From: Bacillota bacterium
GTDB lineage: Bacteria > Bacillota > Clostridia > Lachnospirales > Lachnospiraceae
Reading direction: 5' to 3'
Length of the DNA stretch: 64,000 nucleotides
NCBI GenBank assembly: GCA_023386315.1
Contig: JAEWJZ010000017.1
Span: 1 to 64,000 of the forward strand
A program made the translations under genes and the position numbers. This document shows positions 38,271 to 59,310 of the stretch, piece by piece; the first letter of the stretch is position 1, and each line of letters opens with the position of its first letter. The notes beneath the pieces were generated by a model that saw only the letters and a list, made by a program, of their open reading frames with translations, made no database searches and had not been told where the DNA came from.

Positions 38271-38297
38271 CATATGTACTACTCCCCGGCCTTTCAC

Positions 38298-41893: not shown

Positions 41894-41901
41894 AAATTAT
41901 C

Positions 41902-43107
41902 TCACCGCCTCAAAATCTCATGATATACTTGTTCAAATTTATCTATCTGCCTGTCTATATTATAAATATCAATGGTTTGCAGTATGGAATTAAAATACTT
42001 TTTATAACGTTTACGTTCTGCCAGATTATCCATTAATTCAGCTAATTGACCGCCATTTCCGGCTTCATAAGTTTCCCCGCCCTGTGTATTTTCTATAATC
42101 TCAGGCATTCCGCCGCAGCGTCCGGCAATCACCGGCAGACCATATTTATTTCCCTCTATCAGTACCCGTCCAAACGGCTCCGGCCATACAGAAGGAACGA
42201 TAAGGACATCGCTTTCTTTATATTTTTCCGCCAGCCTTTCATTGTCAAGCTTTCCACAGAATACAATGCGGGGATTTTGTGCAGCACATTTTTTCACATA
42301 TTCCTCCATTTCCCCATTTCCGCAGATAAAAAGCTCACAATCTTTGTACTGCATGCGTTCAAAAGCCTGGATCATATGTTCAATGCCTTTAAAATATACA
42401 AGACGTCCTGCATACATAAACTTAATGTGGGGTGATGTACGATCCTGCTTTTCTTTCATAATCGCTTCTGTCTCACCGTGATTTATTGCAACACTGTTAA
42501 AAATGCATTTTTTTACTCCGGCACGTTTAAAGCACCCGGCTGCAAGGGAGGTTTCAAGGGTATACCTGGAAGGAGCGGTAACACAGGAAACATATTCTGA
42601 AAAGGAACGCATATAGAGCCTGTGTATCATCCGTATTGCAAAATTGGCTTTATGGCCATACTGAACCGGAGATACAACGGAGATGTCCCTGATGGTATGT
42701 ACAATGGGAATATTATATTTATATGCAGCTTTCCAGATCAGGTACGACATCCCATAAATGGTATTGGTATGAACGATATCCGGTTTAAACTCTTTGCAGA
42801 CAAACTCAAAATCTTTCCTGCATTTTACATTGCAATAGCAGAGTAACTTTTGCTGGATTTTTTCAAATTTACCCACGTTTTTTTTATCATAGCTAAACCG
42901 GTACAAATTAAAATCATTGGTTGTGAACCGGTATATCTTAACACCATTATGTATAGCTGTTTCACAATTTCCATCTCTGGAATCCACGCTGTAAATCCCA
43001 ACCTCATGCCCTTTTTTTACAAGCCCCTCTGCCAGTAATTTAACGCTTTGTTCTGCCCCGCCCTGCATATTAGGATAATAAAATGTATTTACAATCAGAA
43101 TCCTCAT
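41902..43107 (-). CDS. Glycosyltransferase family 4
   Basis: A 401-aa GT-B enzyme. N-terminal FYYPNMQGGAEQSVKLLAEG is the usual nucleotide-free lobe start. C-terminal KFMYAGRLVYFKGIEHMIQA, FCGKLDNERLAEKYKESDVL and PEPFGRVLIEG (E-x7-E region) are donor-binding motifs. It adds one sugar to the growing repeat unit; donor and acceptor are unknown. Confidence 0.92.
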   Translation of the reverse strand: MRILIVNTFYYPNMQGGAEQSVKLLAEGLVKKGHEVGIYSVDSRDGNCETAIHNGVKIYRFTTNDFNLYRFSYDKKNVGKFEKIQQKLLCYCNVKCRKDFEFVCKEFKPDIVHTNTIYGMSYLIWKAAYKYNIPIVHTIRDISVVSPVQYGHKANFAIRMIHRLYMRSFSEYVSCVTAPSRYTLETSLAAGCFKRAGVKKCIFNSVAINHGETEAIMKEKQDRTSPHIKFMYAGRLVYFKGIEHMIQAFERMQYKDCELFICGNGEMEEYVKKCAAQNPRIVFCGKLDNERLAEKYKESDVLIVPSVWPEPFGRVLIEGNKYGLPVIAGRCGGMPEIIENTQGGETYEAGNGGQLAELMDNLAERKRYKKYFNSILQTIDIYNIDRQIDKFEQVYHEILRR

Positions 43108-43143
43108 AGTATGTTCCTGTCCCTTTCATGCAATTTTATTGTA

Positions 43144-44178
43144 TTACCGTATTTTTTCCTGCCGTTTCTTTCGATACAAATGTATGAAAGGAGTTTTTCT
43201 TGCAACCTTTTTGATAAGAAACACCACTTTATATTTCAAGCCATAGTTTATATACTTCTTTATGATGGCTTCAAAACCGGTCTGATCATAATCTTTCCAG
43301 AATTCATCATAAAGCGCGGGTTTTTCTGTCTGCCTGCTGAGATTATGCTGGTATTTCCTGTATTCCTGGCTTTTCACCTCCTCCAAAAACATTTCCTGGT
43401 TCTTTTGTACCATATCTGACAAGCTCTTTACTAATTCCATTCCTTTTTCTGTATTGACCAGCATGAGCGACACACCGTATTTCCATGGTATTGCAGTATT
43501 CATTTTTTCAATTCCCCAAAAATCTCCCAAAGTAATATCACCTGGTCTGTCCATGTTAGAAAACGGACAGGAAAAGCAGGCTTTGGCCGTGATATATCCG
43601 GTCATATGCAGACGGGAAAATACAGACAGTAACGCCGTATTCTTTAATACCACTCCATTATCAAAACATGCACGGGCCGGGTATGCCTTCCAGCCTTCCG
43701 GCTTATAACGGAACGAGTATTCTTTTAATCCTGCATGAACCTTTTTTTCCAGCCACTCTTTATAATCATTCCATACCTGTGTTTTTGGTGTTCCATGACA
43801 AATCAGATCAACCGTAAAAAGCTGGTCTCCGGTTATTCCTTCCCTGTCAATATAATTTTTAAGCGCTGCAACCTGGCACGGAGTGCCGGAAAATAATACA
43901 AAACAGCCATTTTTCAATTGACTGGCGATCTCTAAGTAACAATCTTTACAATCACTTTTCACATATTTAGAGCCCTGAAAAATACTGCATTCTTTTGCGG
44001 ATGCAACACCCGTGTGCCTCACTTTAAGATTACTTGTCAGTTCAGCGCCGTAAATATATTTTTTACGGTTCTTATGTAAGAGCTCAAACGCATTGCACAG
44101 CCCTATAAATGCACCGCCGGAAGTACTTCTCATCACTTCCGCATCCGTATTTTTAAAAGCATATACCTGTTTATTCAT
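43144..44178 (-). CDS. FrhB-like protein lacking the ferredoxin domain, copy 2
   Basis: A 344-aa member of the same family as the copies at 35887 and 46445. It starts directly at YAFKNTDAEVMRSTSGGAFI, so the N-terminal 4Fe-4S segment of the other copies is missing. The rest is intact: LFSGTPCQVAALKNYI, DLICHGTP, FRYKPEGWKAYPAR and ITLGDFWGIEK. ATG 44178 has GGTGG-type RBS. The shorter form may be a natural subfamily. It is paired with the pyruvyltransferase upstream. Confidence 0.82.
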   Translation of the reverse strand: MNKQVYAFKNTDAEVMRSTSGGAFIGLCNAFELLHKNRKKYIYGAELTSNLKVRHTGVASAKECSIFQGSKYVKSDCKDCYLEIASQLKNGCFVLFSGTPCQVAALKNYIDREGITGDQLFTVDLICHGTPKTQVWNDYKEWLEKKVHAGLKEYSFRYKPEGWKAYPARACFDNGVVLKNTALLSVFSRLHMTGYITAKACFSCPFSNMDRPGDITLGDFWGIEKMNTAIPWKYGVSLMLVNTEKGMELVKSLSDMVQKNQEMFLEEVKSQEYRKYQHNLSRQTEKPALYDEFWKDYDQTGFEAIIKKYINYGLKYKVVFLIKKVARKTPFIHLYRKKRQEKIR

Positions 44179-44194
44179 CAGACACCACCAACAA

Positions 44195-45325
44195 TCATGC
44201 GATTCCCAAAGCCTTTTTCAAATAAGACTTTGATTTCATTCTTTTTTCCTTTATTATGTTGTCGACCATGTCCCATTCTATGGCCTTCATGCTTAATATG
44301 TCTCTCACTGTCGCATTATCTCCAAGCATTCTTGCCGATATATGGAGCATATTCTGCAAATCGGTTAACCGGTTCATCTGGTGTGCACCGATTTTGGGAA
44401 ACAAATAAAAATTCCTGTGATACAGGCAGCTGAAAATCATACAGTGGAATGAATCTGTAAACACAGCCTCCGCATTCCGAATGACACTGATAAAGTCAGA
44501 AGGAGATGCATCCCAGTATTTTATATCACCAAATTTTCTATCATATTTATTGATGTGTTCATGATCCAGAAAGGGCATTGTTACTATTTTTAAATTGATA
44601 AAATGAGCATACATTTCTATAAGTTTTCGCTGCTGCTCTGTCCCTCGTAATAAATAGACAAAGATATATTTTTCATTAAAACGCCTGGAGGGGCAAATAT
44701 TATCCCAAACAGTACGATCCGCCAGAAGTGTGGGATCTAAAACGGTTTCACAGTCTTCTGTTCCCAGAATGGAAGAAATCAGATTGCGTCCGCTTTCTTC
44801 CCGGCACGAAACCGCATGAAACGTATTAAGATTTTCTCTGATACTTTCTTTCTGATCTTTCGTTACCTGGTCAATGCCTATACTTGGTGCGTATGCAATT
44901 TTCAGTTTACCCGGGTTCACAAAACCCAGCCAGTAAATGCTGTCCAAAGTGGTCAGTTCCGGATTCCAGATCTGATCACTGCCGCATAGAAATCCATCGT
45001 AAATTTCATTGGCCGTATCAATAGATTTTTCTTTATAATGTTTTTCTGATGTCTTAAGGTTCTCATCAACAAATTTCTGCAGCGCCAGATTACGGTTCCT
45101 CAGCTTCTTCGTGCCAAATTTCCACACAATCCTGTGAATGGTTTTCCTGATACCAAATGTTTTAATTTTATGGTAGAAATTATCCACGGAGGCTACTTTC
45201 CCGCTATACTGATTCAGTATTTCATAATCAATATTTTCAAATTCATTCATTACACGTTGCAGAGCATATGCCTGCAGTACAGAACCATAGTTGTTTCTCC
45301 ACCAAGTTAATCCTGCTATTTTCAC
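44195..45325 (-). CDS. Polysaccharide pyruvyl transferase family protein, copy 2
   Basis: A 376-aa protein: KIAGLTWWRNNYGSVLQAYALQ at the N-terminus (read in parts), GSDQIWNPELT, IAYAPSIGIDQ and the C-terminal TDSFHCMIFSCLYHRNFYLF. This is the GSDQxWN branch of the family, also found with FrhB-like partners. The GTG start at 45325 is set by AAGGAGG 5 nt upstream; no ATG fits. The sequence differs from copy 1, so a different acceptor is likely. Confidence 0.88.
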   Translation of the reverse strand: MKIAGLTWWRNNYGSVLQAYALQRVMNEFENIDYEILNQYSGKVASVDNFYHKIKTFGIRKTIHRIVWKFGTKKLRNRNLALQKFVDENLKTSEKHYKEKSIDTANEIYDGFLCGSDQIWNPELTTLDSIYWLGFVNPGKLKIAYAPSIGIDQVTKDQKESIRENLNTFHAVSCREESGRNLISSILGTEDCETVLDPTLLADRTVWDNICPSRRFNEKYIFVYLLRGTEQQRKLIEMYAHFINLKIVTMPFLDHEHINKYDRKFGDIKYWDASPSDFISVIRNAEAVFTDSFHCMIFSCLYHRNFYLFPKIGAHQMNRLTDLQNMLHISARMLGDNATVRDILSMKAIEWDMVDNIIKEKRMKSKSYLKKALGIA

Positions 45326-45335
45326 GGCAACCTCC

Positions 45336-46430
45336 TTACGTTCCTGCATGTGAAACATCTAGATAGATATTGACTAATTGTTTTATATTTTCATTCAAAT
45401 CGTATGATTTTTGTTTTAATGTCGTTCTACATTGCTCACTGGTTTTGTACCTGTTTTGTTCTCCGTTTTTTATGTCCTCAATTGCCCGGCACCAGGAGGC
45501 TGTGTCCCCTAATGGCAGATACCTGGTGAGTCCCATATCCGCTTCATTCGGTACCGCATCGGAAGCAATGCATGGCAGTCCCCCAGCCTGAGCCTCTAAA
45601 AGCACCATTCCCAGCCCTTCCCACTTAGAAGGAAAAACAAAGCAGTCCATGGCATTTAACAGATTTTCCACATTCTTATGTTCGCCCAGCAGCATGACAT
45701 GCTCCTCCAGTTTCAGATCTGAAATTAATTGTTCCACTTCTGGCCACAATGCCCCTTCGCCTATACAAATCAGCTTACTATCCGGCACATGGTCATGAAA
45801 TTCTTTAAAAACCCGCAGCAGATACTCATGATTTTTCTGTTCATTAATCCGGCCTATATGACCGATTACAAATTGATTTTCCAATCCCAGTTTTTTTCTG
45901 TTTAAACTTCTTTTTAATTCATCGAAGCGAAACACTTCCGTATCAATGGCATTATTTAAAACAGTATAAGATCTGTTTTTGTACAGCCAGTTCCCTGCTT
46001 CTTCACTGCAGGCAAGTCTGATTGTGCTTAATCTGTAAAACAATGGAAGCAGCATACTGTTTAAAAGAGGATTGTTACAGGTTGTGTTATGACAATGCAC
46101 AATCCGTTTTTCAATCCCGCAGTTCTTTGCTAATACAAGTTCAGGCAGCATCATTGCACTGTTCCCATGAATATGGACACAATCAAAATGTCCATTTTTT
46201 AAAAGCAGCTTTAATTGTTTAAAATATATCCTGGAATCAGTCCTTCTGCTGGCCAGCCTGTAATAAACAAGACCGGATTGTTTCAATTCTTTCTCCAGTT
46301 CCGGATGAAGATCAAATACCGCATATTCTATTTGAAGCCCCGGACTTTTTATCCGAAAGCAATAGTTTCGAATAACACAGGCAATTCCCTGATAGGTAAA
46401 TGGCGTTGTATTAATTACTAAAATCCGCAA
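45336..46430 (-). CDS. Glycosyltransferase family 4 (EpsF-like)
   Basis: A 364-aa GT-B enzyme: LRILVINTTPFTYQGIACVI at the start, HIHGNSAMMLPELVLA, then QFVIGHIGRINEQKNHEYLL, LLGEHKNVENLLNAMDCFVF and PSKWEGLGMVLLEAQAGGLP. It is typical of capsule GT4 proteins. The start is a TTG at 46430 with GGAGG 7 nt upstream. The open frame to 46514 overlaps the upstream FrhB-like gene and is not needed. Confidence 0.9.
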   Translation of the reverse strand: MRILVINTTPFTYQGIACVIRNYCFRIKSPGLQIEYAVFDLHPELEKELKQSGLVYYRLASRRTDSRIYFKQLKLLLKNGHFDCVHIHGNSAMMLPELVLAKNCGIEKRIVHCHNTTCNNPLLNSMLLPLFYRLSTIRLACSEEAGNWLYKNRSYTVLNNAIDTEVFRFDELKRSLNRKKLGLENQFVIGHIGRINEQKNHEYLLRVFKEFHDHVPDSKLICIGEGALWPEVEQLISDLKLEEHVMLLGEHKNVENLLNAMDCFVFPSKWEGLGMVLLEAQAGGLPCIASDAVPNEADMGLTRYLPLGDTASWCRAIEDIKNGEQNRYKTSEQCRTTLKQKSYDLNENIKQLVNIYLDVSHAGT

Positions 46431-46444
46431 ACAGAGTCCTCCTT

Positions 46445-47602
46445 CTAATTCACACTTTTCAGTATTTGAACAAGCTTTCCCGGCAGAAATGCTTTCAGTC
46501 TTTCCTTCATACACACTCCCACCTTTAGATTTTCAATAAATTTTTCGTCCTGGATTCTCTCATAAAAACCATCCCTTCCTGCGGGTCTGTCAGTCGGATG
46601 CTGCAAATTCCCCTGTTTCGGAAGAATTGCCTCCAAATTGGTTTCTATTACACTGGCCTGTCCTTTCACCCTCTCAAATAATTTATTTCCCTGTAAAGAA
46701 TTGATCAAAACGGCCGATACTCCTGCTGCCGATGTAAATCCGGGATTACTTTTTTCCACCCCCCAGAAATCTCCCACAGTAATATCACCGACCCGGTCAG
46801 TATTTGCATATCTGCATTCATAGCAGCACTCCCGGTAACAATCCCCATTTATAAAGTGCTTTCCGTATTTATCAAGAGAAAGGAGGTTCGTCTCTGTTTT
46901 GGTCTTTGTCTTTAACAGATACTGGGTTCCCCACCCCCGTTTTTCTTTTGAACGGAAATTAAAATACTCCAGCTTCTCTCCAAGCTTTTTTTCCTGATAC
47001 TCAAAATACTTTCTTAAAAATTCCGGGGAGGGGACTCCATGGCAGATCAGATCCAGAGTAAACAAATTATCATAGGATCTGCCTCCCAGATATTGATACA
47101 GTCCGGCAATCTGACAGGGCGTACCTGTAAACAGAACCAGCCTTCCTTGATCCAATTCATGCTTGGCTGATTTATAACAATCATTTACATCTGACTGAAC
47201 ATATTTTGATGACTGTAAACGATATAAATCCACTGCCTTATCCACCTTTATGTGCTTTACTTCCAGTTGTTTTGTGTAAGCACATCCATAGACACTGCCC
47301 CCCGCCCGAATGACAAAACGGGCAAACAGGTCTGAAGCACCCCCGGAAGCGGATTGTAAAATACGCCTTTTATCATTATTTTTCAATCCGAATACCCTAA
47401 CCGGTCTGCGACCCTGGGGCTTAAAATCAAAAGCCGGACATTTCTTTAAGCATAATCCGCATTCAGTGCATAGCGTCTCATCTACGGCGGGATATAAAAA
47501 GCCTTCCTGATCCGGCTGTAAACGTATGCATGTCTGGGGACAGGACTGCTCACAGCTTCTGCAGCCAACACACGCTTTTCCGATTTTCATTATATTATCC
47601 AT
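46445..47602 (-). CDS. FrhB-like protein with 2[4Fe-4S] ferredoxin domain, copy 3
   Basis: A 385-aa protein. The N-terminus has two complete Cys clusters, CVGCRSCEQSCPQTC and CTECGLCLKKCPAFD, for two 4Fe-4S centres. The family core follows: SASGGASDLFARFV, LFTGTPCQIAGLYQYL, LDLICHGVPSPEFL and ITVGDFWGVEKSNPG. ATG 47602 has GAGG 6 nt upstream and overlaps the pyruvyltransferase stop by 8 nt. It is the most complete of the three copies. Confidence 0.88.
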   Translation of the reverse strand: MDNIMKIGKACVGCRSCEQSCPQTCIRLQPDQEGFLYPAVDETLCTECGLCLKKCPAFDFKPQGRRPVRVFGLKNNDKRRILQSASGGASDLFARFVIRAGGSVYGCAYTKQLEVKHIKVDKAVDLYRLQSSKYVQSDVNDCYKSAKHELDQGRLVLFTGTPCQIAGLYQYLGGRSYDNLFTLDLICHGVPSPEFLRKYFEYQEKKLGEKLEYFNFRSKEKRGWGTQYLLKTKTKTETNLLSLDKYGKHFINGDCYRECCYECRYANTDRVGDITVGDFWGVEKSNPGFTSAAGVSAVLINSLQGNKLFERVKGQASVIETNLEAILPKQGNLQHPTDRPAGRDGFYERIQDEKFIENLKVGVCMKERLKAFLPGKLVQILKSVN

Positions 47603-48740
47603 GCTTGTCCTCACCGTAACAACCAATCTGTTTTTTCAGATAATCCAGCGTTTTCACCCGCTCCGCATTAATAATCCTGTCAACCGCTGTGTAATCAATT
47701 GCTCTTTCCAAAACTGATTCAATCTCATTGACACTTGCGGCGACCCGTTTGGAAAGTCCGGTCCTCTTTAGCAGATCACTCAGTTTTTCCTCATTTCCGT
47801 AGGAATTACCTGTGCTCTTACAGATAATCGTTACAAATTTCCGCTTTGTTATTATAGAGAATATGGTTCCATGAAAGGTATCTGTAATAACAGCTTCCGC
47901 ATTCTGAAAAAATGCCAGCACATCAAACGGAGAACAATCGATGAAATGGTCCGCACATCTGTGGATTCCGCCAAAGGAATAAACCTTCATTCCTTTCTTT
48001 TTTGCGTAAGCGAAAATCCAGTCATTTATTTCTCTGGAGATTCTTCCGGAATATGCATAAAGAATCAGATACCGCTCCTTTGTCTTTATTTGGGGAATCA
48101 GCCTGCACTCCCCTATGTAGTCATACGCCAAAACAGGATCCAGGTGATATTCCGGTATCACACCCGATAATTCACTTACAATATGGCCTGAATTTCTGTC
48201 ACGAACCGATATCGCATCAAATCTTTTTAAATACCAGCCGATCTCCCTGTCCTTGTGATACTGTCTTAATTTTTCCATTGTTGTATTTCCAAAAGAAGCT
48301 GCATAGGTCAATAATTTTTTTGCCCTCTGATTTTTTCCAAACAATTCCAAAGAATAACCAACATTGGGATTGGACTGAATACAATTAAAAACCTCATCAC
48401 TGCCGATCACCAATGCATCTAATTCCGGCAGGTAATTCATTTCCGGTGTAATCCCAAGGATAGGCAGATACTTTCCGGCAAACTGCTTTTTATATAAAAC
48501 AAACTGAATCCGATGCTTCCATGGAGCATCATACTGAAATGCTTTCAACACCTTGCGGACTTTCAAAAATGATCCCGGCTTTTGAAATCGTGATTGGGAA
48601 ATTAATGGTTTTTCTGTGTGATAATCCACAAACTCCACGTTATGCCCTAATTTTTCAAGAAGCATCTTAAGCCCATAAGCCTGTAAAAAAGAGCCGTAAT
48701 TTACAATTCTCTGCATGGATAAAATTCCTACTTTTGCCAT
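47595..48740 (-). CDS. Polysaccharide pyruvyl transferase family protein, copy 3
   Basis: A 381-aa protein: VGILSMQRIVNYGSFLQAYG, ALVIGSDEVFNC, LTYAASFGNT and AVITDTFHGTIFSIITKRKF. It is closer to copy 2 in style than to copy 1. It overlaps both neighbours by 8-13 nt, so it is inside a tightly coupled block: Alg13-like, this gene, FrhB-like. Confidence 0.87.
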   Translation of the reverse strand: MAKVGILSMQRIVNYGSFLQAYGLKMLLEKLGHNVEFVDYHTEKPLISQSRFQKPGSFLKVRKVLKAFQYDAPWKHRIQFVLYKKQFAGKYLPILGITPEMNYLPELDALVIGSDEVFNCIQSNPNVGYSLELFGKNQRAKKLLTYAASFGNTTMEKLRQYHKDREIGWYLKRFDAISVRDRNSGHIVSELSGVIPEYHLDPVLAYDYIGECRLIPQIKTKERYLILYAYSGRISREINDWIFAYAKKKGMKVYSFGGIHRCADHFIDCSPFDVLAFFQNAEAVITDTFHGTIFSIITKRKFVTIICKSTGNSYGNEEKLSDLLKRTGLSKRVAASVNEIESVLERAIDYTAVDRIINAERVKTLDYLKKQIGCYGEDKHG

Positions 48741-49255
48741 CGGTCAGTCTCCTGGTCGTTTCTAAACAATCCCTTAACAAGCAGTTCCATTTGTTTATTG
48801 AATGCTCCGTTATTACTCATAATTCCTGCAGGTATACTGGAAATAATACTGTCGTATCTTACAATCACATCTGCAAGCTCTGAGATATGGTAAACAGGAA
48901 TGATGTTTCCGTATCTCTCCTTAACTGCTTTTGTAAACTCAACCTGATGATTGTTTACATGCTCATGAAACTCATATTGTCTCGGCACCACCACCGGAAT
49001 TTTTCCGATCTGAAGCGGCATAATAAAACTGGCCGGGCCGCCGTGGGTAATCACGATTCGTGCATGTTCAACATTTTTCACCATGTCGTCATAAGGAAGC
49101 AGCTTATGCCACTCACAATACCGGGGTTCATAGGTGCTGTAACCGGTTTGAATGATTACATCTTCCAGGATGATCCCAGTTTTTTTTAATCTGTCAATTT
49201 CTTCAAGCAGCCTGTTAAATGGCTGTTCATGTGTCCCAACCGTCGCAAAAATCAT
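48728..49255 (-). CDS. Glycosyltransferase family 28, Alg13-like catalytic half (EpsF/CpsG-type)
   Basis: A 175-aa C-terminal GT28 domain: MIFATVGTHEQPFNRLLEEI, VIIQTGYS and ITHGGPASFIMPLQIGKIPV (donor-binding loop). In capsule loci this half works with an Alg14-like membrane partner, encoded just upstream here, to add the second sugar (for example galactose in pneumococcal Cps14F/14G). The donor is unknown. Confidence 0.9.
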   Translation of the reverse strand: MIFATVGTHEQPFNRLLEEIDRLKKTGIILEDVIIQTGYSTYEPRYCEWHKLLPYDDMVKNVEHARIVITHGGPASFIMPLQIGKIPVVVPRQYEFHEHVNNHQVEFTKAVKERYGNIIPVYHISELADVIVRYDSIISSIPAGIMSNNGAFNKQMELLVKGLFRNDQETDRWQK

Positions 49256-49276
49256 TCATCTGCCCCCTGTAAATAA

Positions 49277-49741
49277 TTAAAATATGCTCCCCAGGTTAAT
49301 TGCCTTTTTATATATTTTTTTCATCTCCTCCCACTGGACAATAAACTTATCCGTGATAGGATATACCATTTTACCGGTCATGGTAGACTTATCGATCCGG
49401 TCATAAACCTCGATATAAATCAGCCTTGCTCCGAACAGCTTTCCTATATAGAAGAACGGAACTGCCACAGCTGCCCCCGAAGAGATGATGATATCCGGCT
49501 TTTCTTTCCGGATGGTCTTCCAGGCAAGCCGCGTATTAATGAGCAATGCTTTTAAGCTGCGGTTTGTAGGATAATAACAGGATATTATTTTTTCATCCTT
49601 TAACAGACTTTTTGCATCGTCTTTATTAAAGGTTACCCAAAACCGCTCTTTGTCCTGCCAAAATGATTTCAGCATATATAAATGAGTCAGATGACCGCCT
49701 GATGATCCCACCAGGCAAATTTTCATAGTTTCGTTTCTCAT
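49277..49741 (-). CDS. Alg14-like glycosyltransferase partner (EpsE/CpsF-type)
   Basis: A 154-aa protein: ICLVGSSGGHLTHLYMLKSF, FNKDDAKSLL, PDIIISSGAAVAVPFFYIGK and LIYIEVYDRIDKSTMTGKMV. It matches the Alg14/Cps14F family, which recruits the Alg13-like subunit to the membrane. ATG 49741 has GGGAG 8 nt upstream; the frame opens at 49828 inside the dehydrogenase gene. Confidence 0.9.
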   Translation of the reverse strand: MRNETMKICLVGSSGGHLTHLYMLKSFWQDKERFWVTFNKDDAKSLLKDEKIISCYYPTNRSLKALLINTRLAWKTIRKEKPDIIISSGAAVAVPFFYIGKLFGARLIYIEVYDRIDKSTMTGKMVYPITDKFIVQWEEMKKIYKKAINLGSIF

Positions 49742-49763
49742 TTTCCCATCTCCCGAATTATCA

Positions 49764-50990
49764 TCAATCTCTTCTATATAAGTCTCTTGTATATACCTTC
49801 TCCTCCACATCATCCAATACGGAATCATAGCGGTTTGCTATCACTGCACTGCTCATTCTCTTAAATTTGGCCAGGTCATTTACAACCAGACTGCCAAAGA
49901 ACGTGCTGCCATCTTTGAGCGTTGGCTCGTAAATCACCACTACCGCACCTTTTGCCCGGATGCGCTTCATAACTCCCTGAATGCTGCTTTGCCGGAAATT
50001 ATCAGAATCAGCCTTCATCGTTAGCCGGAAAACTCCAATAACAACCCGTTCAGACCTGGTATTATCTGCGTATGTATCATACCCCGCCTTTTGAAGAACC
50101 CTGTCTGCAATAAAGTCTTTCCTCGTTTTGTTTGCTTCCACAATTGCACTCATGATATTCTGGGGTACGGCGTAATAATTAGCCAGAAGCTGTTTCGTAT
50201 CCTTGGGCAGGCAGTACCCGCCGTAACCAAAGGAGGGATTATTGTAGTAATTGCCGATTCTCGGATCCAATCCCACTCCCTCTATAATATCCCGCGTATT
50301 CAGCCCCCTCATCTCAGCATAGGTATCTAATTCATTGAAGTAGCTGACTCTGAGAGCCAGATATGTATTGGCAAACAGCTTCACGGCTTCCGCTTCCGTT
50401 AAATCGGTTAATAATATGGAAATATTGTCTTTGACTGCTCCCTCTGCAAGCAATCCGGCAAATGTCTCTGCTGCTTTCTTAAGTCTTTTGTCCTCCTTCG
50501 GCGCACCCACAATAATCCTTGAAGGATACAGATTGTCGTAGAGTGCCCGTCCTTCTCTTAAAAACTCAGGACTGAATATAATATTCTCACAATTATATTT
50601 TTCTCTTATAGATTTTGTATAACCTACAGGAACTGTGGATTTAATCACCATAATTGCATCCGGATTGGTCTTTATGACCAGTTCGATCACTGCCTCTACA
50701 GAACTGGTATCAAAGTAATTCTTTACCGGATCATAATTTGTCGGAGTGGAAACAATGACGAAATCAGCATCCCTGTATGCAGCAGCGCCGTCTGTTGTTG
50801 CTGTTAAATTTAAATTTCCTGCCGCCAGATATTCTTCAATCTCTTTATCTATAATCGGGGATTTCCTGTTATTGATGTCAGCAACCTTTTCTTCTAAAAT
50901 ATCTACTGCCTGTACCTCATTGTGCTGCGCCAGTAAAATTGCATTGGATAACCCCACATACCCTGTACCGGCAACTGCTATTTTATACAT
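49764..50990 (-). CDS. UDP-glucose/nucleotide-sugar dehydrogenase
   Basis: A 408-aa NAD-dependent four-electron dehydrogenase making a UDP-uronic acid. Rossmann motif [19 protein letters not shown] (~2-20), [26 protein letters not shown] and the catalytic Cys in [12 protein letters not shown] (~250). UDP-glucose 6-dehydrogenase is the best guess, so the polymer probably contains a uronic acid. ATG 50990 has GGAGG 8 nt upstream. Confidence 0.92.
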
Positions 50991-51025
50991 CTTCTGCACC
51001 TCCATTTATCTGGCATTATTTAACT

Positions 51026-51988
51026 CTATAGAGTTCCGCCAGCTCGATTATTCCAGAACCATCTGACTGTTTGATACAGATCCACACTGTATTTCCCTTC
51101 CTCTATCAGACGAGTTATCTGGTTTTTCACCTCTTCTTTATCTTCCTGATAGGTAACACCAAACCATTTGTCATTGGTTTTTAAAACCGCCACCTTTGCC
51201 TTTCCCCGTTTTATTAAGTCATCCATCAGTACCGGAAGTAAATACTCTTTCTTTTTTTCACCATCATTCATGCTTTTTAAGAAATCAACAAATCCGGCTT
51301 CCAGTTCTGTAAAAAATCCGGGACTCACCCCCCACATATTCATAGATACCAGATTATCATCAGATAAAATTATCTGCTTCCCGCTTTCATCCTCGCCTTT
51401 GACCGTTCCGTCTGCCTGTTTCTTAATATGAAATGTTTCAGTCACAGACGACAGATTTCCTGCTTTATCTATTGAGCAGATACCTCTCGTTACGTCACCA
51501 TTGGGACTTAACGTATTGCCCAGCATGAAACCTGCCATACAAAAACTTAAGGGAATTGACTCTTCATGGCTGACCAGATAATCGTGTATTTTAATAAAAG
51601 CCTCTTTACCGTAATAATCATCCGCATTAATTACTACAAACGGCTCCTTCAGGATTCCTTTGCATACCAATACTGCCTGTCCTGTCCCCCATGGTTTTTC
51701 CCTTCCTTCCGGCAGGAAAAATCCCTCGGGCAAATTGTCCAGTTCCTGAAAAACATATTCTACAAGAGCCAGTTTCTCAATTCTTTTGCCTATTACCTCC
51801 TTGAATTCTTTTTCAATATTTTTCCGGATAATAAAAACAATTTTGTTAAAACCGGCTTCCAGGGCATCAAAAATGGAATAATCCATAATGATTTCTCCAT
51901 TTGGTCCAACAGGCTCCAGCTGCTTGATTCCGTTTCCATACCTGCTTCCGATTCCTGCTGCCATAATTACAACTGCTGTATCTCTCAT
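51026..51988 (-). CDS. Nucleotidyltransferase (NTP-sugar type)
   Basis: A 320-aa protein with the sugar-nucleotidyltransferase start AVVIMAAGIGSRYGNGIKQL and PVGPNGEIIMDYSIFDA. Activated-sugar or phosphocholine-type cytidylyl/uridylyl transfer is possible; product unknown. A later segment, FVVINADDYYGKEAF, holds the metal-binding Asp. ATG 51988 has AGGAAGG upstream. It supplies a precursor for the polymer by context. Confidence 0.85.
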   Translation of the reverse strand: MRDTAVVIMAAGIGSRYGNGIKQLEPVGPNGEIIMDYSIFDALEAGFNKIVFIIRKNIEKEFKEVIGKRIEKLALVEYVFQELDNLPEGFFLPEGREKPWGTGQAVLVCKGILKEPFVVINADDYYGKEAFIKIHDYLVSHEESIPLSFCMAGFMLGNTLSPNGDVTRGICSIDKAGNLSSVTETFHIKKQADGTVKGEDESGKQIILSDDNLVSMNMWGVSPGFFTELEAGFVDFLKSMNDGEKKKEYLLPVLMDDLIKRGKAKVAVLKTNDKWFGVTYQEDKEEVKNQITRLIEEGKYSVDLYQTVRWFWNNRAGGTL

Positions 51989-52005
51989 TTTTCCCCTTCC
52001 TTTCA

Positions 52006-53442
52006 TTATTCAGCTCCCTTGTGAAGCATAACCACAATTACTGTCTGGCTCAGAATCCGTAAATCTGACCATATGGACCAGTTATCAATATAGTTTAAAT
52101 CCAGGCTTACTACATCTTCAAAATCCTGAATATTGCTTCTGCCAGTCACCTGCCACAAGCCGGTAATTCCCGGTTTCAGGCTAAGCCGGCGTTTATGGTG
52201 CTCTTCATACTTCACAAATTCATCCATGGTGGGCGGTCTTGTACCAACCAGGCTCATATCCCCTTTCAGAACATTAAAAAACTGGGGGAACTCATCAATG
52301 CTTGTTTTTCTGATAAACTTACCTACTTTTGTAATCCTTGGGTCATCTTTTAGTTTGAACATGAGGCCATTCATCTGGTTTTTGCTCATCAGTTCCTTTT
52401 TTCTTTCTTCTGCATCCATATACATGGACCGGAACTTATAAATTGAAAAAAGCCTTCCGTTTCTCCCGACCCGTGTCTGCTTAAATATGACCGGACCAGG
52501 CGATTCCATATAGATCGCCGGCACAACCAAAATCCCCAGAATTATTGTAAAAAGCACTCCGACTACCCCGCCCAGGATATCTAACAGACGTTTCAGAATT
52601 AATTCCGATGGTTCAAACACCCTTGTACAATAGGTAAGAACCCGTTCTCCTCCGAAATTATTAATCACCTTTTCTCTTTCACTTAAGCCAAATGTATTTA
52701 CAGTTACATGAGCTACAATTCCAAGTGTTTCAAGACGGCTGATTAAACTGTCTAAGTACAGCCTGCTGTTATCCGGTATACTAATCAAAGCTTCATCGAC
52801 TACCTGCTTTTTTAAATACTCTGCAACACTGTCCCGGCTCACAACCATATAATTACTTTTCTCATCCTTTTTCACCAGATAGAGCTCTGTCTTTGGATCT
52901 TCCCCTGATTTCTGATCCGCATCAACAATTGCTACAGCCACCACATCGCAGTCATATGGCATTGAATTTACATACTTATTCATCACATTTAATTCATTGC
53001 TTCTATTTGCATAAATCAGCAGCTTTTTCCGGTTTTCCGGCTTATGGTAATGGGAGATCAATAAATATTTGCAATACAGCCTTCCAAGAACCATGCAGAA
53101 ATAATTGAAAAAGAAAAACAACAGGTAAAAAGCTCTTGAAGACCGCCCCCCCAGTTTTGAAAGATATAAAATGAACGCCAGTACAAGGGCTATATACATA
53201 TTGATCAGAAATATATTTTTCAGTTCATTCCACAGGGAGCGTTCCATGAAAGGCTTACCGGACTGGTAAAACATGACCACAGTCAAATATGCAAAAATTA
53301 CGAGAACTGCGCCATACCAGCGCCCGATTATGAATTCTGCAGACTGCAGGGAAGCAAATTTTGCAAGCATCGCCAGAACATAGGAGCATACAATGGCTGC
53401 AAAATCTATGAATATGTAAAATATCCGGTTTTTACTCAGCAT
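52006..53442 (-). CDS. Initiating polyprenyl-phosphate sugar transferase (WbaP/CpsE-type)
   Basis: A 478-aa membrane enzyme that starts repeat-unit synthesis by moving a sugar-1-phosphate to undecaprenyl phosphate. Four helices (~8-125) are followed by a CoA-binding-like domain (~130-260), a helix at ~285-305 and the catalytic domain with FKQTRVGRNGRLFSIYKFRS, DEFPQFFNVLKGDMSLVGTR and KPGITGLWQVTGRSN. Its start overlaps the small membrane-protein gene by 11 nt. Confidence 0.95.
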   Translation of the reverse strand: MLSKNRIFYIFIDFAAIVCSYVLAMLAKFASLQSAEFIIGRWYGAVLVIFAYLTVVMFYQSGKPFMERSLWNELKNIFLINMYIALVLAFILYLSKLGGRSSRAFYLLFFFFNYFCMVLGRLYCKYLLISHYHKPENRKKLLIYANRSNELNVMNKYVNSMPYDCDVVAVAIVDADQKSGEDPKTELYLVKKDEKSNYMVVSRDSVAEYLKKQVVDEALISIPDNSRLYLDSLISRLETLGIVAHVTVNTFGLSEREKVINNFGGERVLTYCTRVFEPSELILKRLLDILGGVVGVLFTIILGILVVPAIYMESPGPVIFKQTRVGRNGRLFSIYKFRSMYMDAEERKKELMSKNQMNGLMFKLKDDPRITKVGKFIRKTSIDEFPQFFNVLKGDMSLVGTRPPTMDEFVKYEEHHKRRLSLKPGITGLWQVTGRSNIQDFEDVVSLDLNYIDNWSIWSDLRILSQTVIVVMLHKGAE

Positions 53443-53703: not shown

Positions 53704-54408
53704 TTATTGTTCACTCTCCTGAAGTTCACCCTCATATTTTCCGTATTTTTTGTATTTTCCATAGTATCTGCCGCTATCCAGATTGACATTATTCAAAATC
53801 ACTCCGAGAATACGGCAGCCGCTTTTTTCCAGCTGTTTTTTTATCTTCTGTTCCACACGGTAGCTTACCTTTCCGCTTTCAATAACAAGAACCGCTCCGT
53901 CACAGTGATTGGCAATAATGGCTCCGTCAATCAGATTCAGCATGGGAGGCGTGTCAATGATAATATAGTCATATTCTGCTCTTGCTGCCTGTATCAGCAA
54001 AGAAAATGCGGGTTCCTCCAGAAGCTCTGCAGGATTCGGAGAATAAGGACCGGAAAATACAATGTTTAAGTTATTTAAATTCGTTTCATATATAATCTCT
54101 TCTTTATTTTTCTGCCCGCTGAGAAATTGGGATAATCCATTCACTTCCTTATCAAGCTCATATCTTGAAACCATGACCGATTTTCTGATATCTGCATCAA
54201 TTAAGAGAACGTTCTTTCCAATTTGAGCCAGAGAGGTAGCCATGGAAAAAGACATACTGGATTTTCCTTCATTTGGAACTGCACTTTCTAACATAATGAC
54301 CTTTATATTACTGCCGCAAAATTGAATATTTGTTCTTAAAGTCTTAATTGCTTCCTCATAGCTATAATTTCCTTTCTTTAGATTTCCCAGGTTTACTGAA
54401 TTTCTCAT
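53704..54408 (-). CDS. Bacterial tyrosine kinase (CpsD/CapB-type)
   Basis: A 234-aa cytoplasmic BY-kinase that controls chain length and export with Wzz. Walker A ESAVPNEGKSSMSFSMA, Walker A' VLLIDADIRKS and Walker B DYIIIDTPPML. The Tyr-rich tail (SGRYYGKYKKYGKYEGEL) is the autophosphorylation cluster. It overlaps the Wzz gene by 47 nt. The Wzz protein is its membrane activator and the PHP phosphatase upstream would reverse it. Confidence 0.95.
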   Translation of the reverse strand: MRNSVNLGNLKKGNYSYEEAIKTLRTNIQFCGSNIKVIMLESAVPNEGKSSMSFSMATSLAQIGKNVLLIDADIRKSVMVSRYELDKEVNGLSQFLSGQKNKEEIIYETNLNNLNIVFSGPYSPNPAELLEEPAFSLLIQAARAEYDYIIIDTPPMLNLIDGAIIANHCDGAVLVIESGKVSYRVEQKIKKQLEKSGCRILGVILNNVNLDSGRYYGKYKKYGKYEGELQESEQ

Positions 54409-55168
54409 GTTTTATTATCCCCTCCTTCTTTTTGTCCGTTTTTTTCTTCCATAATTTATTTGTTATTTTGGCAGGAGAACCTTCCCGGTTGGGAACAACA
54501 GCAAGTACTGTCAGCCCCAGATAACGTTCGGCATCCTCTTCGGTGCGAATGGTATCATCTATGATTACACCGGCTGTCAGCACTGCTAAAATAAAGAACA
54601 TACCGGCTGCAGCCCCAATCATGGCATTTTTTTTGTTATCAGGTCCGGTCTTGACCGATGGTACTTCTCCTTCTTCAAAAATTTTAGGCTGCACCATTTC
54701 CATCATGTCACCAATATAATCAGATGCAGTCAGCGCGATCTCATCTACGATTTTTTTTGCCCGTTCCGGATCCGTATCCTGGACTGCCAATGAAAGTATG
54801 CGGGTATCTGTCGGATTGGTTACACTGATTCTTTTCTTTAAATCTTTATAAGACATGTTAAGCCCCAGTGATTTTACTACCTTCTCCATTACCGGCCGGC
54901 TGGTTATCAGGATTTTATAGTCCTTTGTCAGCTGACTGCCAACCTGCAAATCAGCCAGCGAAGTCATTGAAGTTTCCTTTGACAGGACATAGAGCATAGC
55001 CGTAGATGTATATTGAGGCGTTAAAACATAACTGCTGTAAACTCCTGCACCAACGCCGGATAACAGGGTTATAAGAATAATCAGCCACAGCTTCCTCTTC
55101 AATTTGTAAAACAATTCCAATAAGTCAATTTGAATCTCCTGGTTATCATCCATGTTATTTGTTCTCAT
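54362..55168 (-). CDS. Chain-length determinant / kinase activator (Wzz, CapA/CpsC-type)
   Basis: A 268-aa protein with two helices (~29-50 and ~180-203) around an extracellular loop, the Wzz domain (LLELFYKLKRKLWLIILITL, SSYVLTPQYTSTAMLYVLSK). A long basic C-terminal tail would contact the kinase. AGGAG lies 6 nt before ATG 55168. Confidence 0.93.
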   Translation of the reverse strand: MRTNNMDDNQEIQIDLLELFYKLKRKLWLIILITLLSGVGAGVYSSYVLTPQYTSTAMLYVLSKETSMTSLADLQVGSQLTKDYKILITSRPVMEKVVKSLGLNMSYKDLKKRISVTNPTDTRILSLAVQDTDPERAKKIVDEIALTASDYIGDMMEMVQPKIFEEGEVPSVKTGPDNKKNAMIGAAAGMFFILAVLTAGVIIDDTIRTEEDAERYLGLTVLAVVPNREGSPAKITNKLWKKKTDKKKEGIIKHEKFSKPGKSKERKL

Positions 55169-55183
55169 TTGTACTCCTGTTTT

Positions 55184-55894
55184 TTATTCTCTTTTTTTCA
55201 GTAAATTCAGGGCATAATTACCTGTCAGACTTTGATACATTTCCAGACTGCAGTTTTTTTTAATCCATAGCAATGCTTTCTCTATCTCAGGTGTCCTTTC
55301 ATTCAGGTGATGCATATCGGTTCCCAGCATATGTATATGCCCCTGCCGTATCTGAAGCCTGCACCAGTGTACCTGTCTGTTAAACCGGCTTCCCATAATA
55401 CTGCAGTAATTCATCTGCAGTATGCATCCGGAATTGATCAGTTCCTTTACTCTTCCTTTCTCACGCAGGCAGAGGTAACGTTCCATGTGGGCAAGTATGG
55501 GAACATAACGGGCCAATATTATTTTTCGAAGTCCCTGCAGCAATCTGGAGTAGGTAACCAAAGGCGGAAACTCGATCAGCACATACTGACTTTTGCACAT
55601 GGTAAGCGCCTTTTTTTCTTTCAGATCCTCCAATACATCTTCACAGTACAGAATTTCCTGTCCCAGATATATATTGAAATGTTTATGTATTTTACGGGCT
55701 TCCCGCTGCAGCTTTCTGCTTAATTCCATAATCTGTTTCGGATCTTGTCCCCTTTTAAAATGAGGAGTAACTATTATCTTTCGAATCCCCTGGCTATAAG
55801 CCATCTGCAGCATGGCCTTCGCTTCTTCCATATCGGCAGCCCCATCATCAATTCCGGGAAGGACATGCGCATGAATATCAATGATTTCCTGCAT
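55184..55894 (-). CDS. PHP-type tyrosine phosphatase (CpsB/CapC)
   Basis: A 236-aa Mn-dependent phosphotyrosine phosphatase: IDIHAHVLPGIDDGAADM, IVTPHF, YVLIEFPP, LAHMERY and LGTDMHHL give the PHP metal ligands. First gene of the operon. ATG 55894 has GGAG upstream; the frame opens at 55921. Only about 70 bp separate it from the left edge of the invertible segment, so its promoter must lie in or beyond that segment. Confidence 0.93.
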   Translation of the reverse strand: MQEIIDIHAHVLPGIDDGAADMEEAKAMLQMAYSQGIRKIIVTPHFKRGQDPKQIMELSRKLQREARKIHKHFNIYLGQEILYCEDVLEDLKEKKALTMCKSQYVLIEFPPLVTYSRLLQGLRKIILARYVPILAHMERYLCLREKGRVKELINSGCILQMNYCSIMGSRFNRQVHWCRLQIRQGHIHMLGTDMHHLNERTPEIEKALLWIKKNCSLEMYQSLTGNYALNLLKKRE

Positions 55895-55965
55895 CGCATC
55901 ACTCCTTTTTGTTACAGTCAATAATCAGCGCTGGTGTACTCTTTCATAAATACGAAAAGAGGTAA

Positions 55966-55983
55966 CATAATGTAAATTATGTT
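55966..55983 (+). repeat. Left site of the EPS invertible segment (18-bp inverted repeat)
   Basis: CATAATGTAAATTATGTT, the exact reverse complement of 56222-56239. This copy sits in a longer perfect dyad, AGGTAACATAAT-gtaa-ATTATGTTACCT (55960-55987). Both copies are dyads, so their relative orientation is set by the 4-bp centre (gtaa here, ttac at the other copy). Confidence 0.9.
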
Positions 55984-56038
55984 ACCTGAATAGGGTATAT
56001 TTTCTAATATTGGATAAATTTGGTATGTTTTTAGATAA

Positions 56039-56069
56039 ATAAAAAAGCATGAATTTAGATTTTCATGCC
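56039..56069 (-). terminator. Terminator inside the invertible segment, facing the EPS operon
   Basis: GCATGAA pairs with TTCATGC (56068-56062 with 56053-56047) and is followed by TTTTTT on the minus strand. It would stop readthrough from the recombinase gene into the EPS genes in this orientation. Confidence 0.75.
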
Positions 56070-56148
56070 TTGGCTAATACCATACCTGGTTTTTATTGAG
56101 ATTTATTACCATTTTTTACCAATTTATACAAAAATTTCTAATTTTCTA

Positions 56149-56177
56149 TTGTAAATCTTTAGAATATGTATTATATT
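56149..56177 (+). promoter_or_regulatory. Promoter-like site inside the invertible segment, facing away from the EPS operon
   Basis: TTGTAA (56149-56154), a 17-bp spacer and TATATT (56172-56177) on the plus strand. In this orientation it would transcribe antisense into the recombinase 3' end. Confidence 0.55.
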
Positions 56178-56209
56178 AAGAATGTAGTAAGAATTTATTT
56201 GCGGTATTT

Positions 56210-57100
56210 CTAACTATTGCAAACATAATTTACATTATGATTCTTAATTTTACTGTAATCATATACCAGACCCAGCTTTGATATGAGCTTTTGATGTTCC
56301 TCCCCTGTAGTTGCCGTATAAATCCGGGTGGTTTCAATGCTGGAATGACCAAGAACCTCCGCCAGGCGTAATAAATTCTTTTCCAGGCGATAAAAAATAA
56401 ACGCAAACAGATGACGTAAATTATGAGGAAACACTTTTTTCTCGTCAACATTTGCCTTATGGCAGAGGCCTTTCATCTTTTTCCAGATAATTGTCCGATT
56501 AATCGGAGAATTTGTCTTAGAAAGGAATATTGGACCTGCTTCTATTTTCTGTGAAACGCAGTAAGATCTTAAAATCTTAATAAGCTGCTTCGGTATAAAT
56601 ATAACCCTTACTTTTCCTTTATTATTGATCTGTGCATACCCTGCTTTCAGTGACTGCACAGTAATAAACTGCAGTTCACTGACTCTTATTCCAGTGCTGC
56701 ATATAGTCTGCATCAAAAGACTAAGCTGAATGTCCCCTTCTTCTTTTGCTGCCACGATCAGGTTTTCATATTCTTTTTTCGTCAAACATGTCTCTTTTTT
56801 ACAAAATAAAGTTCTTTGAATCTTAAACTGACGAACTTTACATTCAAACCATCCGGCATATTCCAAAAAACGATTTAAAGCAACTATCATAGAATTAGCA
56901 CTTGATACCTGGTAATTATTTTTTAAGTATTCCTTATATTCAATTACATTTCTTTTCTCAATCACTTTATCTCCTGATAAAAAATTATAGAACTTCTTTA
57001 TATCCCTTTTATATTTTTCTATTGTTAATTTTGCCTTTTCCTCTTCATATAAATAATCTTCATACTGTTTCATAAGTTCTATTGTCAATATTCTCTCCAT
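56210..57100 (-). CDS. Tyrosine recombinase (XerC/RecV-like), likely EPS-switch invertase
   Basis: A 296-aa recombinase: SAM-like domain ~1-90 and catalytic domain ~110-290 with Arg in STGIRVSELQF, HNLRHLFAF, LGHSSIETTRIY (nucleophile Tyr). RBS AAGGAG before ATG 57100. The 18-bp site 56222-56239 lies inside its last codons. After inversion the frame would end VT-stop instead of VCNS-stop, so the enzyme stays intact either way, as a self-compatible switch would need. Its upstream promoter (57272-57304) matches that of the secreted-protein gene and is probably read by the neighbouring ECF sigma factor. Confidence 0.9.
   Translation of the reverse strand: MERILTIELMKQYEDYLYEEEKAKLTIEKYKRDIKKFYNFLSGDKVIEKRNVIEYKEYLKNNYQVSSANSMIVALNRFLEYAGWFECKVRQFKIQRTLFCKKETCLTKKEYENLIVAAKEEGDIQLSLLMQTICSTGIRVSELQFITVQSLKAGYAQINNKGKVRVIFIPKQLIKILRSYCVSQKIEAGPIFLSKTNSPINRTIIWKKMKGLCHKANVDEKKVFPHNLRHLFAFIFYRLEKNLLRLAEVLGHSSIETTRIYTATTGEEHQKLISKLGLVYDYSKIKNHNVNYVCNS
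56222..56239 (-). repeat. Right site of the EPS invertible segment (18-bp inverted repeat)
   Basis: AACATAATTTACATTATG on the plus strand, inverse of 55966-55983; contains the dyad CATAAT-ttac-ATTATG and overlaps the recombinase 3' coding end. Confidence 0.9.
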
Positions 57101-57521: not shown

Positions 57522-57971
57522 TTATTTTGCATAATTTTCAAAATAACCGGATACTGTCTCACCAACTCCATTACGATATACCGTAGCAGTAATAGTCAGC
57601 CGATAAGTATAACCTCTTGTTACGTAATAACTATTATCAAAGATCAGCCTGTTACCTGCCACATTTAAGTTGTTCCACGTTTTTACAGTGGTATAGGTTC
57701 CGTTTGAATTTTTTCTGGATAATACGGCAGTGCCCGTTATATTCTTCACATCTGACCAGCCTTGTACACAAGCGCCGCAAATAGCCTTGCTCCCCTTAAA
57801 TGAAAGGTTGATATCAATAGAAGAAGTGCTGGCCCACCGGACTGCCGGAAGATCTAAAGTGTTAACCGGCACACAGGAATAATTGGTTGAGGCAAACGCC
57901 TTCCCTCCCATCAGGAAACAGGATATGACGAGACACATAATAAAGGTACATTTTTTCATTTTTATAAACAT
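57522..57971 (-). CDS. Small secreted protein (DUF6147-like)
   Basis: A 149-aa secreted protein with a signal peptide (~5-29, MKKCTFIMCLVISCFLMGG, cleavage near AFA-S). The mature part is beta-rich, has three Cys (SCVPVN, ICGACVQ) and a pattern of small exported clostridial proteins of the DUF6147 type, which is a low-confidence guess. AGGAGG is 7 nt before ATG 57971. Its promoter (58013-58045) is the twin of the recombinase promoter, so it probably belongs to the same ECF regulon. Confidence 0.65.
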   Translation of the reverse strand: MFIKMKKCTFIMCLVISCFLMGGKAFASTNYSCVPVNTLDLPAVRWASTSSIDINLSFKGSKAICGACVQGWSDVKNITGTAVLSRKNSNGTYTTVKTWNNLNVAGNRLIFDNSYYVTRGYTYRLTITATVYRNGVGETVSGYFENYAK

Positions 57972-58061: not shown

Positions 58062-58766
58062 TTATTTTTCCAGACTATTACCTATGCGGATTAATTCATC
58101 GCTGTTTACTTTTGATGTCAATTCAAAAACAACATCGTGTGATTTCCAGAGAAGTACATTGTAATTATCATCCTTTACTGCTTTAAACAAATATGCTGTA
58201 TTACCAGAAATATCGACTTCTGTATAATTCGTGTTTTCATTGTCAATCAATGACGTTCCTTCTTCAGCCTTTCTCTGCTTTAATACAATCTCAGTATCTG
58301 ATTCATTGGAATATACCAGCAAAGCAGAATTTCCATAAATCTCCTCTGATATCTTTTTATATCCTTCCGGCAAATATGCTGGCCTGAAGATATCCATCTG
58401 CTGCCCGTCGGCTGAAGAATCTTGAAACTGGATTTGTGTATATTTTCCAAACTGATTAACAAAGGTGTTGAGTATTACGTTTCTGGTTGCCTCAACGCTG
58501 AGCAGTGTGGCAGACGACAGAACAATGATCACCATAAAGCATGCTGCTATTTTACGGTTACTTTTAACGAAGTGCCTTATTTTAGACTTGATCTTCTGTT
58601 CAGAAATCAACTTTTTTATTCGTTTGTCCAACTCCGCAGACGTTGGATATTTCTCATTTAATTCTTTATTGGAGGGCAATGCATCCATTTCATCTCTCAG
58701 TGCATCAGATATGGCTGCTTTCAGCAGCGAATCAAACAATTCTTTATTTCGATCTTCACTGGTCAC
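58062..58766 (-). CDS. DUF4367 anti-sigma factor-like membrane protein
   Basis: A 234-aa protein: cytoplasmic N-terminus (~1-70), one helix (~73-95, KIAACFMVIIVLSSATLLSV), then an extracellular domain of the DUF4367 type (DIFRPAYLPEGYKKISEEIY, NTAYLFKAVKDDNYNVLLW). The gene overlaps the sigma stop by 11 nt, the usual arrangement for a cognate anti-sigma factor. The N-terminus lacks a clear zinc HxxxCxxC motif, so binding would be by another mode. Confidence 0.82.
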   Translation of the reverse strand: MTSEDRNKELFDSLLKAAISDALRDEMDALPSNKELNEKYPTSAELDKRIKKLISEQKIKSKIRHFVKSNRKIAACFMVIIVLSSATLLSVEATRNVILNTFVNQFGKYTQIQFQDSSADGQQMDIFRPAYLPEGYKKISEEIYGNSALLVYSNESDTEIVLKQRKAEEGTSLIDNENTNYTEVDISGNTAYLFKAVKDDNYNVLLWKSHDVVFELTSKVNSDELIRIGNSLEK

Positions 58767-59310
58767 TGTAAACTCCCTCCTTTTTCAATTCCTTCTTCAA
58801 AGCTTTACGCGCCCTGCTAAGGCGCATTTTAGCATTCTCCGTACTGATACCCAGTATTTTACCTATTTCTTCAAATGAGCAATCAAATTCTACTTTCAGA
58901 TAAAGAATATCCGAATAACTTTTTTTAAGATTACCTATACAGCATTTTATTTTATCACAGGCTTCCTTAACTGAAAAATTATCAAAAGCCGGTTCTTCAT
59001 AACTTAAACCATAATCATCTTCTTCCAATGGTACTATTTGTTTCTTCTTCTGTTTTCGGAGCATATCAATCGCAACGTTTCTCACTATAATAACGACGAA
59101 CCCCCTCGTTTGGTAACAGTCTACTATATTAATTTTTTCAAGATTATCAATTATTTTTATAAATGCTTCTGATACCGCATCTTCTGCAAGATGTACTTCA
59201 TTTAAGATCGTGTTGGCTATGTAAAGCATTGTTCCGCTGTAAAGTTCATAAATCTCGGTTACTTTATCCCGATCTCTTTCATTTTCAAGCGTCATTATGA
59301 AAGCAAGCAA
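58756..59310 (-). CDS. ECF-type RNA polymerase sigma factor
   Basis: A 184-aa sigma-70 family factor. Region 2 (~15-85) includes LAEDAVSEAFIKIIDNLEKI and RGFVVIIVRNVAIDMLRKQK. Region 4 (~120-175) includes LKKSYSDILYLKVEFDCSFE and EIGKILGISTENAKMRLSRA. The start is TTG at 59310 with GGAGG 8 nt upstream. Paired with the DUF4367 gene. The shared promoter at 57272-57304 and 58013-58045 is the best candidate for its target. Confidence 0.9.
   Translation of the reverse strand: MLAFIMTLENERDRDKVTEIYELYSGTMLYIANTILNEVHLAEDAVSEAFIKIIDNLEKINIVDCYQTRGFVVIIVRNVAIDMLRKQKKKQIVPLEEDDYGLSYEEPAFDNFSVKEACDKIKCCIGNLKKSYSDILYLKVEFDCSFEEIGKILGISTENAKMRLSRARKALKKELKKEGVYSDQ

Follow-up and report, generated by a model that had tools for sequence, protein, structure and literature searches.

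In the window, by which we mean the whole 64,000-nucleotide stretch of DNA that was analysed, the EPS operon of a Lacrimispora is preceded by what we consider, with good confidence, to be a self-contained phase-variation cassette, in which the adjoining tyrosine recombinase would flip a 238-bp segment and the assembled state would be EPS-OFF. A phase switch is by far the best reading of the comparative sequence data, and the locus is very probably a functional one that works by known principles. This core idea had been put forward in a preliminary description of the same DNA. It is well supported by the linkage of recombinase and repeats, by repeat arms that track recombinase clades, by a conserved promoter position and by two homologous segments found in opposite orientations, although all five EPS-type copies that were compared share one orientation. 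Related cassettes precede other, mostly cell-surface, genes in many related bacteria, and what is new is that the cassette is portable: within its family the arms go with the recombinase, the centres vary but match, and the genes downstream are of many kinds.

The operon under the putative control of the switch reads on the minus strand and consists of the following features:

55895 to 55965, minus strand: EPS leader, 71 bp, with a ribosome-binding site AAGGAG recognized by eye (consensus scan)
55184 to 55894, minus strand: CpsB/CapC phosphatase, the first EPS gene (PF19567, 5.7e-68)
54362 to 55168, minus strand: Wzz-like chain-length determinant (profile match)
53704 to 54408, minus strand: polysaccharide tyrosine autokinase (TIGR01007, 5.6e-65)
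52006 to 53442, minus strand: EPS polyprenyl glycosylphosphotransferase (TIGR03025, 2.1e-113)
35887 to 52006, minus strand: further co-directional EPS genes (profile scans)

The last of these stretches contains nucleotidyltransferase, UDP-sugar dehydrogenase, glycosyltransferase, pyruvyl transferase, Wzy-like and flippase-like genes, with 10 of the 13 ORFs of at least 170 aa between 35887 and 49828 scanned. The start of the phosphatase gene was picked by eye at the ATG at 55894; the ORF list begins at the TTG at 55921. A consensus scan of the 71-bp leader found no promoter directed toward EPS. On the other side of the locus, the next gene upstream of the recombinase (57522-57971) encodes a protein of 149 aa that looks secreted by eye and has no Pfam or NCBIfam match, and upstream of the recombinase on its own strand an ECF sigma factor gene and then a gene for a DUF4367 protein are found at 58062-59310. 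An Rfam scan returned a single sub-threshold match, 4 kb distant.

Between the operon leader and the recombinase gene, the elements of the proposed switch are arranged as follows:

56210 to 57100, minus strand: tyrosine recombinase, 296 aa (PF00589, 6e-25; R139, K161, H226, R229, H252 and Y261)
56222 to 56239, no strand: recombinase-side inverted repeat, a putative recombination site that also encodes the recombinase end (exact inverted match)
55984 to 56221, no strand: invertible segment, 238 bp (aligned to four relatives)
56149 to 56177, plus strand: promoter-like site TTGTAA-17-TATATT, facing the recombinase as assembled (conserved in the EPS-type alignment)
56041 to 56071, minus strand: central intrinsic-terminator-like hairpin with T-run, pointing toward the EPS operon (EPS-type alignment)
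55966 to 55983, no strand: EPS-side inverted repeat, a putative recombination site (exact inverted match to 56222-56239)
55960 to 55987, minus strand: junction hairpin spanning the EPS-side repeat, with a 12-bp stem (folding)

An 18-bp inverted repeat at 55966-55983 and 56222-56239, a spacing of 238 bp and a dyad with an asymmetric four-base centre had all been claimed before and are borne out: the pair is exact, and both copies read CATAAT-GTAA-ATTATG, followed by TT in the full 18 bp. With up to three mismatches allowed, this pattern has two matches in the window, which are the repeats themselves, against a chance expectation of 0.24. The recombinase reads toward the EPS operon, is full-length with a complete R-K-H-R-H-Y catalytic set, and shares 93-95% identity with recombinases of three other species. 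Its gene adjoins the segment as had been stated, but instead of ending inside the right-hand repeat the ORF crosses the whole repeat, with the stop codon (56210-56212) located 10-12 bp within the invertible segment. An in silico flip agrees with the earlier view that inversion leaves the reading frame closed, the protein ending in ...NYVCNS (296 aa) in one state and in ...NYVT (294 aa) in the other.

As first proposed, the segment contains a terminator-like hairpin directed toward EPS and a promoter-like site that points the other way. In the assembled orientation the central hairpin at 56041-56071 would also end the recombinase transcript. The junction hairpin folds with -12.8 kcal/mol as assembled and with -4.6 kcal/mol and 8 pairs when flipped in silico; by folding, the window has a junction terminator of the cwpV type solely in the predicted OFF orientation, and its stem holds three G-C pairs, below the four required in PMC2784873. 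In genome G011 the corresponding hairpin is a 21-bp stem of -26.3 kcal/mol (-5.9 when flipped) followed by TTTTTT. This stem pairs sequence from within the segment with sequence beyond it, the principle proposed for cwpV in the same source. Other EPS-type relatives have a weaker junction hairpin, and in G002 the best terminator is the central one. The promoter-like site is weak but conserved: by consensus score it does not exceed shuffled sequence (p about 0.64), and its support comes from conservation and from its position in relatives, not from its own score. Its -10 element (56172-56177) ends 62 nt from the segment end, a distance that is 45-85 nt in most relatives.

From these elements we infer that the recombinase flips the window copy and that the assembled state is OFF, with EPS expression following orientation. 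The recombinase would bind the CATAAT/ATTATG arms of both inverted sites, and strand exchange across the identical asymmetric centre GTAA would flip the 238-bp segment. In the assembled state, the promoter would point toward the recombinase and the central and junction hairpins toward EPS, keeping the operon OFF. Once inverted, the segment would direct its promoter at EPS from a point about 60 bp short of its end, the central terminator would be turned toward the recombinase, and the junction hairpin would be reduced from 12 to 8 base pairs, so that EPS would be ON. In this ON state the recombinase transcript would lack its terminator and continue toward EPS; in the OFF state it would meet an antisense promoter. 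Because of both effects, recombinase expression may itself depend on orientation, by analogy with fimE.

The polarity of promoters and terminators can be followed across relatives. Promoters with a score of 10 or more occur in 40 of 80 segments compared with 152 of 1600 shuffled ones, and the -10 of these strong promoters lies 45-85 nt from the end pointed to in 35 of the 40, against 29 of the 152; related copies are non-independent, and the calls for loci L049 and L108 are doubtful. Thirty strong promoters are directed toward the recombinase and 10 toward the operon, clear operon-facing cases being L138, L145, L137, L133 and L045 of G054. Terminator scores favour the operon direction in all 19 Lacrimispora segments and are mixed outside Lacrimispora. 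In 12 of the 19 the top-scoring promoter is directed at the recombinase, and in seven, all of the Tad or adhesin type, it faces the operon by small margins. The OFF assignment is therefore best grounded in the EPS type.

These promoters also bear on an alternative that we consider unlikely, and that is compatible with the main reading. Flipping would work, but EPS would be driven mainly by read-through from the recombinase or by a promoter farther upstream, the segment being a switchable terminator similar to that of cwpV and the promoter-like site incidental. Such an arrangement is consistent with a recombinase that reads toward EPS, with two hairpins that both face EPS as assembled, the junction hairpin being strong solely there, and with the weakness of the window promoter, whereas the strong promoters that relatives carry at a set position speak against it.

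For the phase switch with its own promoter, a comparison of sister assemblies had been suggested as a way to see both orientations. The EPS switch has a single orientation in five assemblies (window, G001, G011, G024 and G002), no flipped copy being found among them, and opposite orientations appear in the homologous loci L151 and L139. The Tad and adhesin switches of Lacrimispora are co-oriented within each type, as are 57 of the 59 alignable segment pairs; both inverted pairs include L151. For L151 (G409) and L139 (G095), homologous switches from two species of one genus, the inner segment gives an alignment score of 125.5 when inverted versus 57.5 in the same orientation and 84 for the best of 500 shuffles, and both flanks are in common orientation (76% and 81%). 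L151 is also inverted relative to L129 of its own genome. Since L129 and L139 are the closer pair (94% recombinase identity, compared with 79-81% between L151 and either of them), sequence comparison indicates that L151 is probably a paralogue of these two switches. The inversion between L151 and L139 is real, yet it does not represent a single strain's switch caught in both of its states. Searches within the genera of G338, G064 and G296 yielded no further inverted pair.

Contigs end within 450 nt downstream of the recombinase at 8 of 70 loci and upstream at 1 of 70, a clustering that is expected for a mixed culture, although draft assemblies also break for other reasons. In G001 an intact recombinase sits at a contig end (L038, end of G001:C35), and the EPS operon and switch begin another contig (L039, start of G001:C152). 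The latter opens with a recombinase remnant that is diverged and holds a stop, next to a repeat with a mismatch. Either the assembly broke at the switch, or the genome has a second copy.

A single orientation in all five EPS-type copies would also be seen if a former switch were now locked, with the recombinase or the promoter dead in the Lacrimispora EPS lineage and one orientation fixed. The stop-bearing remnant and mismatched repeat in G001 fit this explanation, which we nevertheless regard as quite improbable: the window recombinase is full-length, retains its catalytic residues and is closely matched in three other species, and in both repeat copies of G002 (80% identity) GTAA has been replaced by CTAA at the centre.

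That the phase switch belongs to a larger family is seen from 70 non-redundant recombinase homologues with their flanking DNA, taken as the top matches in each search. The 61 of them that have at least 600 nt downstream of the recombinase all show an inverted repeat of 12 nt or longer on that side, and in 59 it measures at least 14 nt. The controls gave 4 of 68 for the upstream side of the same genes and 1 of 13 for other tyrosine recombinases. In a second set that overlaps the first, a repeat pair is present at 54 of 60 family loci versus 1 of 59 after shuffling. Four of the six loci missing the pair are at contig ends, L095 has an 11-nt core with the same centre, and L128 has a recombinase with no repeat pair detected, the one clear miss among the 60. 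Of the genomes sampled, 83 of 397 in the window's family (E 1e-40) and 63 of 391 in its class (E 1e-45) contain homologues, the family and class being taken as Lachnospiraceae and Clostridia, and the highest number per genome is at least six. The nearest genome compared, G001, shares 22% of sampled 31-letter words with the window.

Across the recombinases, R139, K161, H226 and H252 are found in 80 of 80 rows, and R229 and Y261 in 79 of 80. The sole protein with a changed second catalytic Arg (R to W) is that of L133 (G296:C4:249846-255700); the segment beside it has predicted ON polarity, and this switch may be locked ON. The sole one with a changed catalytic Tyr, to Cys, is that of L106 (G302:C33:80900-86863), where the segment has no strong promoter in either direction.

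The repeats themselves combine a constant and a variable part. With sites defined by their arms alone, the two copies have the same centre, inverted, in 59 of 59 pairs versus 54 of 3422 between loci, a match that is partly by construction, as the loci had been pre-selected for having a pair. No palindromic centre occurs among these 59 pairs. The arms are of the CATAA type in 60 rows, of the GAAT type in 19 and of another type in one. Arm type changes three times on the recombinase tree, compared with a mean of 17 for shuffled labels, none of 500 shuffles being as low as three. That a DNA-binding regulator uses the repeats as operator dyads, and that they are not recombination sites, is hardly credible: each repeat is itself a dyad, but the asymmetric centre is the same, inverted, within every pair and varies between loci, as strand exchange predicts, recombinase linkage is near total, and homologous segments are found in opposite orientations.

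Taking the repeats as recombination sites of a phase switch, one could go further and propose, as a tentative possibility, a widespread plug-in cassette family in which the recombinase fixes the arms, the free four-base centre is an address separating paralogous switches, and inversion rewires the terminator and antisense promoter of the recombinase to create an OFF bias. Among recombinase pairs at least 60% identical, a common centre is found in 1 of 25 pairs from one genome and in 14 of 62 pairs from different genomes; the pairs are non-independent, and 9 of the 14 are near-orthologues with at least 88% identity. Two switches of G302, L087 and L096, have one common centre, which counts against the address idea. 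At L110 (G299:C2:183400-189350) the site is amplified, with three tandem direct copies at each segment end.

The layout had originally been likened to the RecV switches of Clostridioides difficile, a comparison that holds for the junction hairpin confined to the OFF orientation, as in cwpV (Cdi1; PMC2784873), and less so for the rest. According to PMC2784873 and PMC5903667, RecV acts on several switches, only one C. difficile site adjoins a recombinase, the cwpV segment is described without a promoter, and the RecV gene lies elsewhere. In contrast to RecV's targets, the window switch has its own recombinase adjacent, and unlike cwpV its segment contains a promoter-like site. Both the adjacent site pairs and the tracking of arms with recombinase clades speak against one recombinase acting in trans on several sites. 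A RecV-style master switch was rejected as the closest relative, recombinase and site being together in 61 of 61 and 54 of 60 loci. Cdi7, the one site with an adjacent recombinase in the C. difficile survey, is unaffected by RecV (PMC5903667). It resembles the window switch in adjoining a recombinase gene and differs from it in a segment that contains a small ORF.

The nearest layout is instead that of fimE-fimS in Escherichia coli, and by analogy the window switch would work most like this system, with a cwpV-like junction terminator in addition. As described in PMC9993118, fimS is a 314-bp invertible segment with the operon promoter and a terminator acting on fimE mRNA, and its inversion either links the neighbouring recombinase gene to this terminator or separates the two. 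Both systems have a recombinase gene next to the invertible segment. The window switch differs in having one recombinase in place of FimB plus FimE, intrinsic-type hairpins in place of a Rho-dependent terminator, a recombinase ORF that enters the segment, and the EPS operon of a Lacrimispora as its target. In the open PMC literature, searched under current genus names, we came across no article that deals with phase variation in Lacrimispora or with this family of cassettes. Among the invertons of hCom2, groups 139 and 125 are dominated by Firmicutes_A, and group 139 has an excess of tyrosine-type recombinases close by and includes a member whose orientation shifts over passages (PMC11892184). 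Judging by this description, both groups may be of the same family as the window cassette.

If the phase switch is true, EPS in this Lacrimispora would be bet-hedged instead of steadily expressed, and one portable cassette could account for cell-to-cell differences in polysaccharide, pili and further surface structures across many relatives. Such switches could be sought by a simple rule, namely constant arms around a centre that varies between loci and matches within a pair, and the family offers natural material for testing how the overlap sequence keeps recombinase sites distinct. The first downstream genes (69 in all) include CpsB/CapC, signal peptidase and prepilin peptidase with seven cases each, choline-binding repeats and DUF7601 with five each, three HTH regulators, an EAL protein and a chemoreceptor. 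Second downstream genes (50) include the Flp-pilus protein RcpC/CpaB seven times and Wzz five times. Labels given here to individual loci (Tad operon, adhesin, TasA-like matrix) come from reading the ORFs, aided by family matches. Downstream of L044 (G037:C6:127000-139217) are genes that resemble a matrix operon of the TasA/SipW type; at this locus a second hairpin with a T-run, recognized by eye, lies between promoter and repeat, like an attenuator in the ON transcript.
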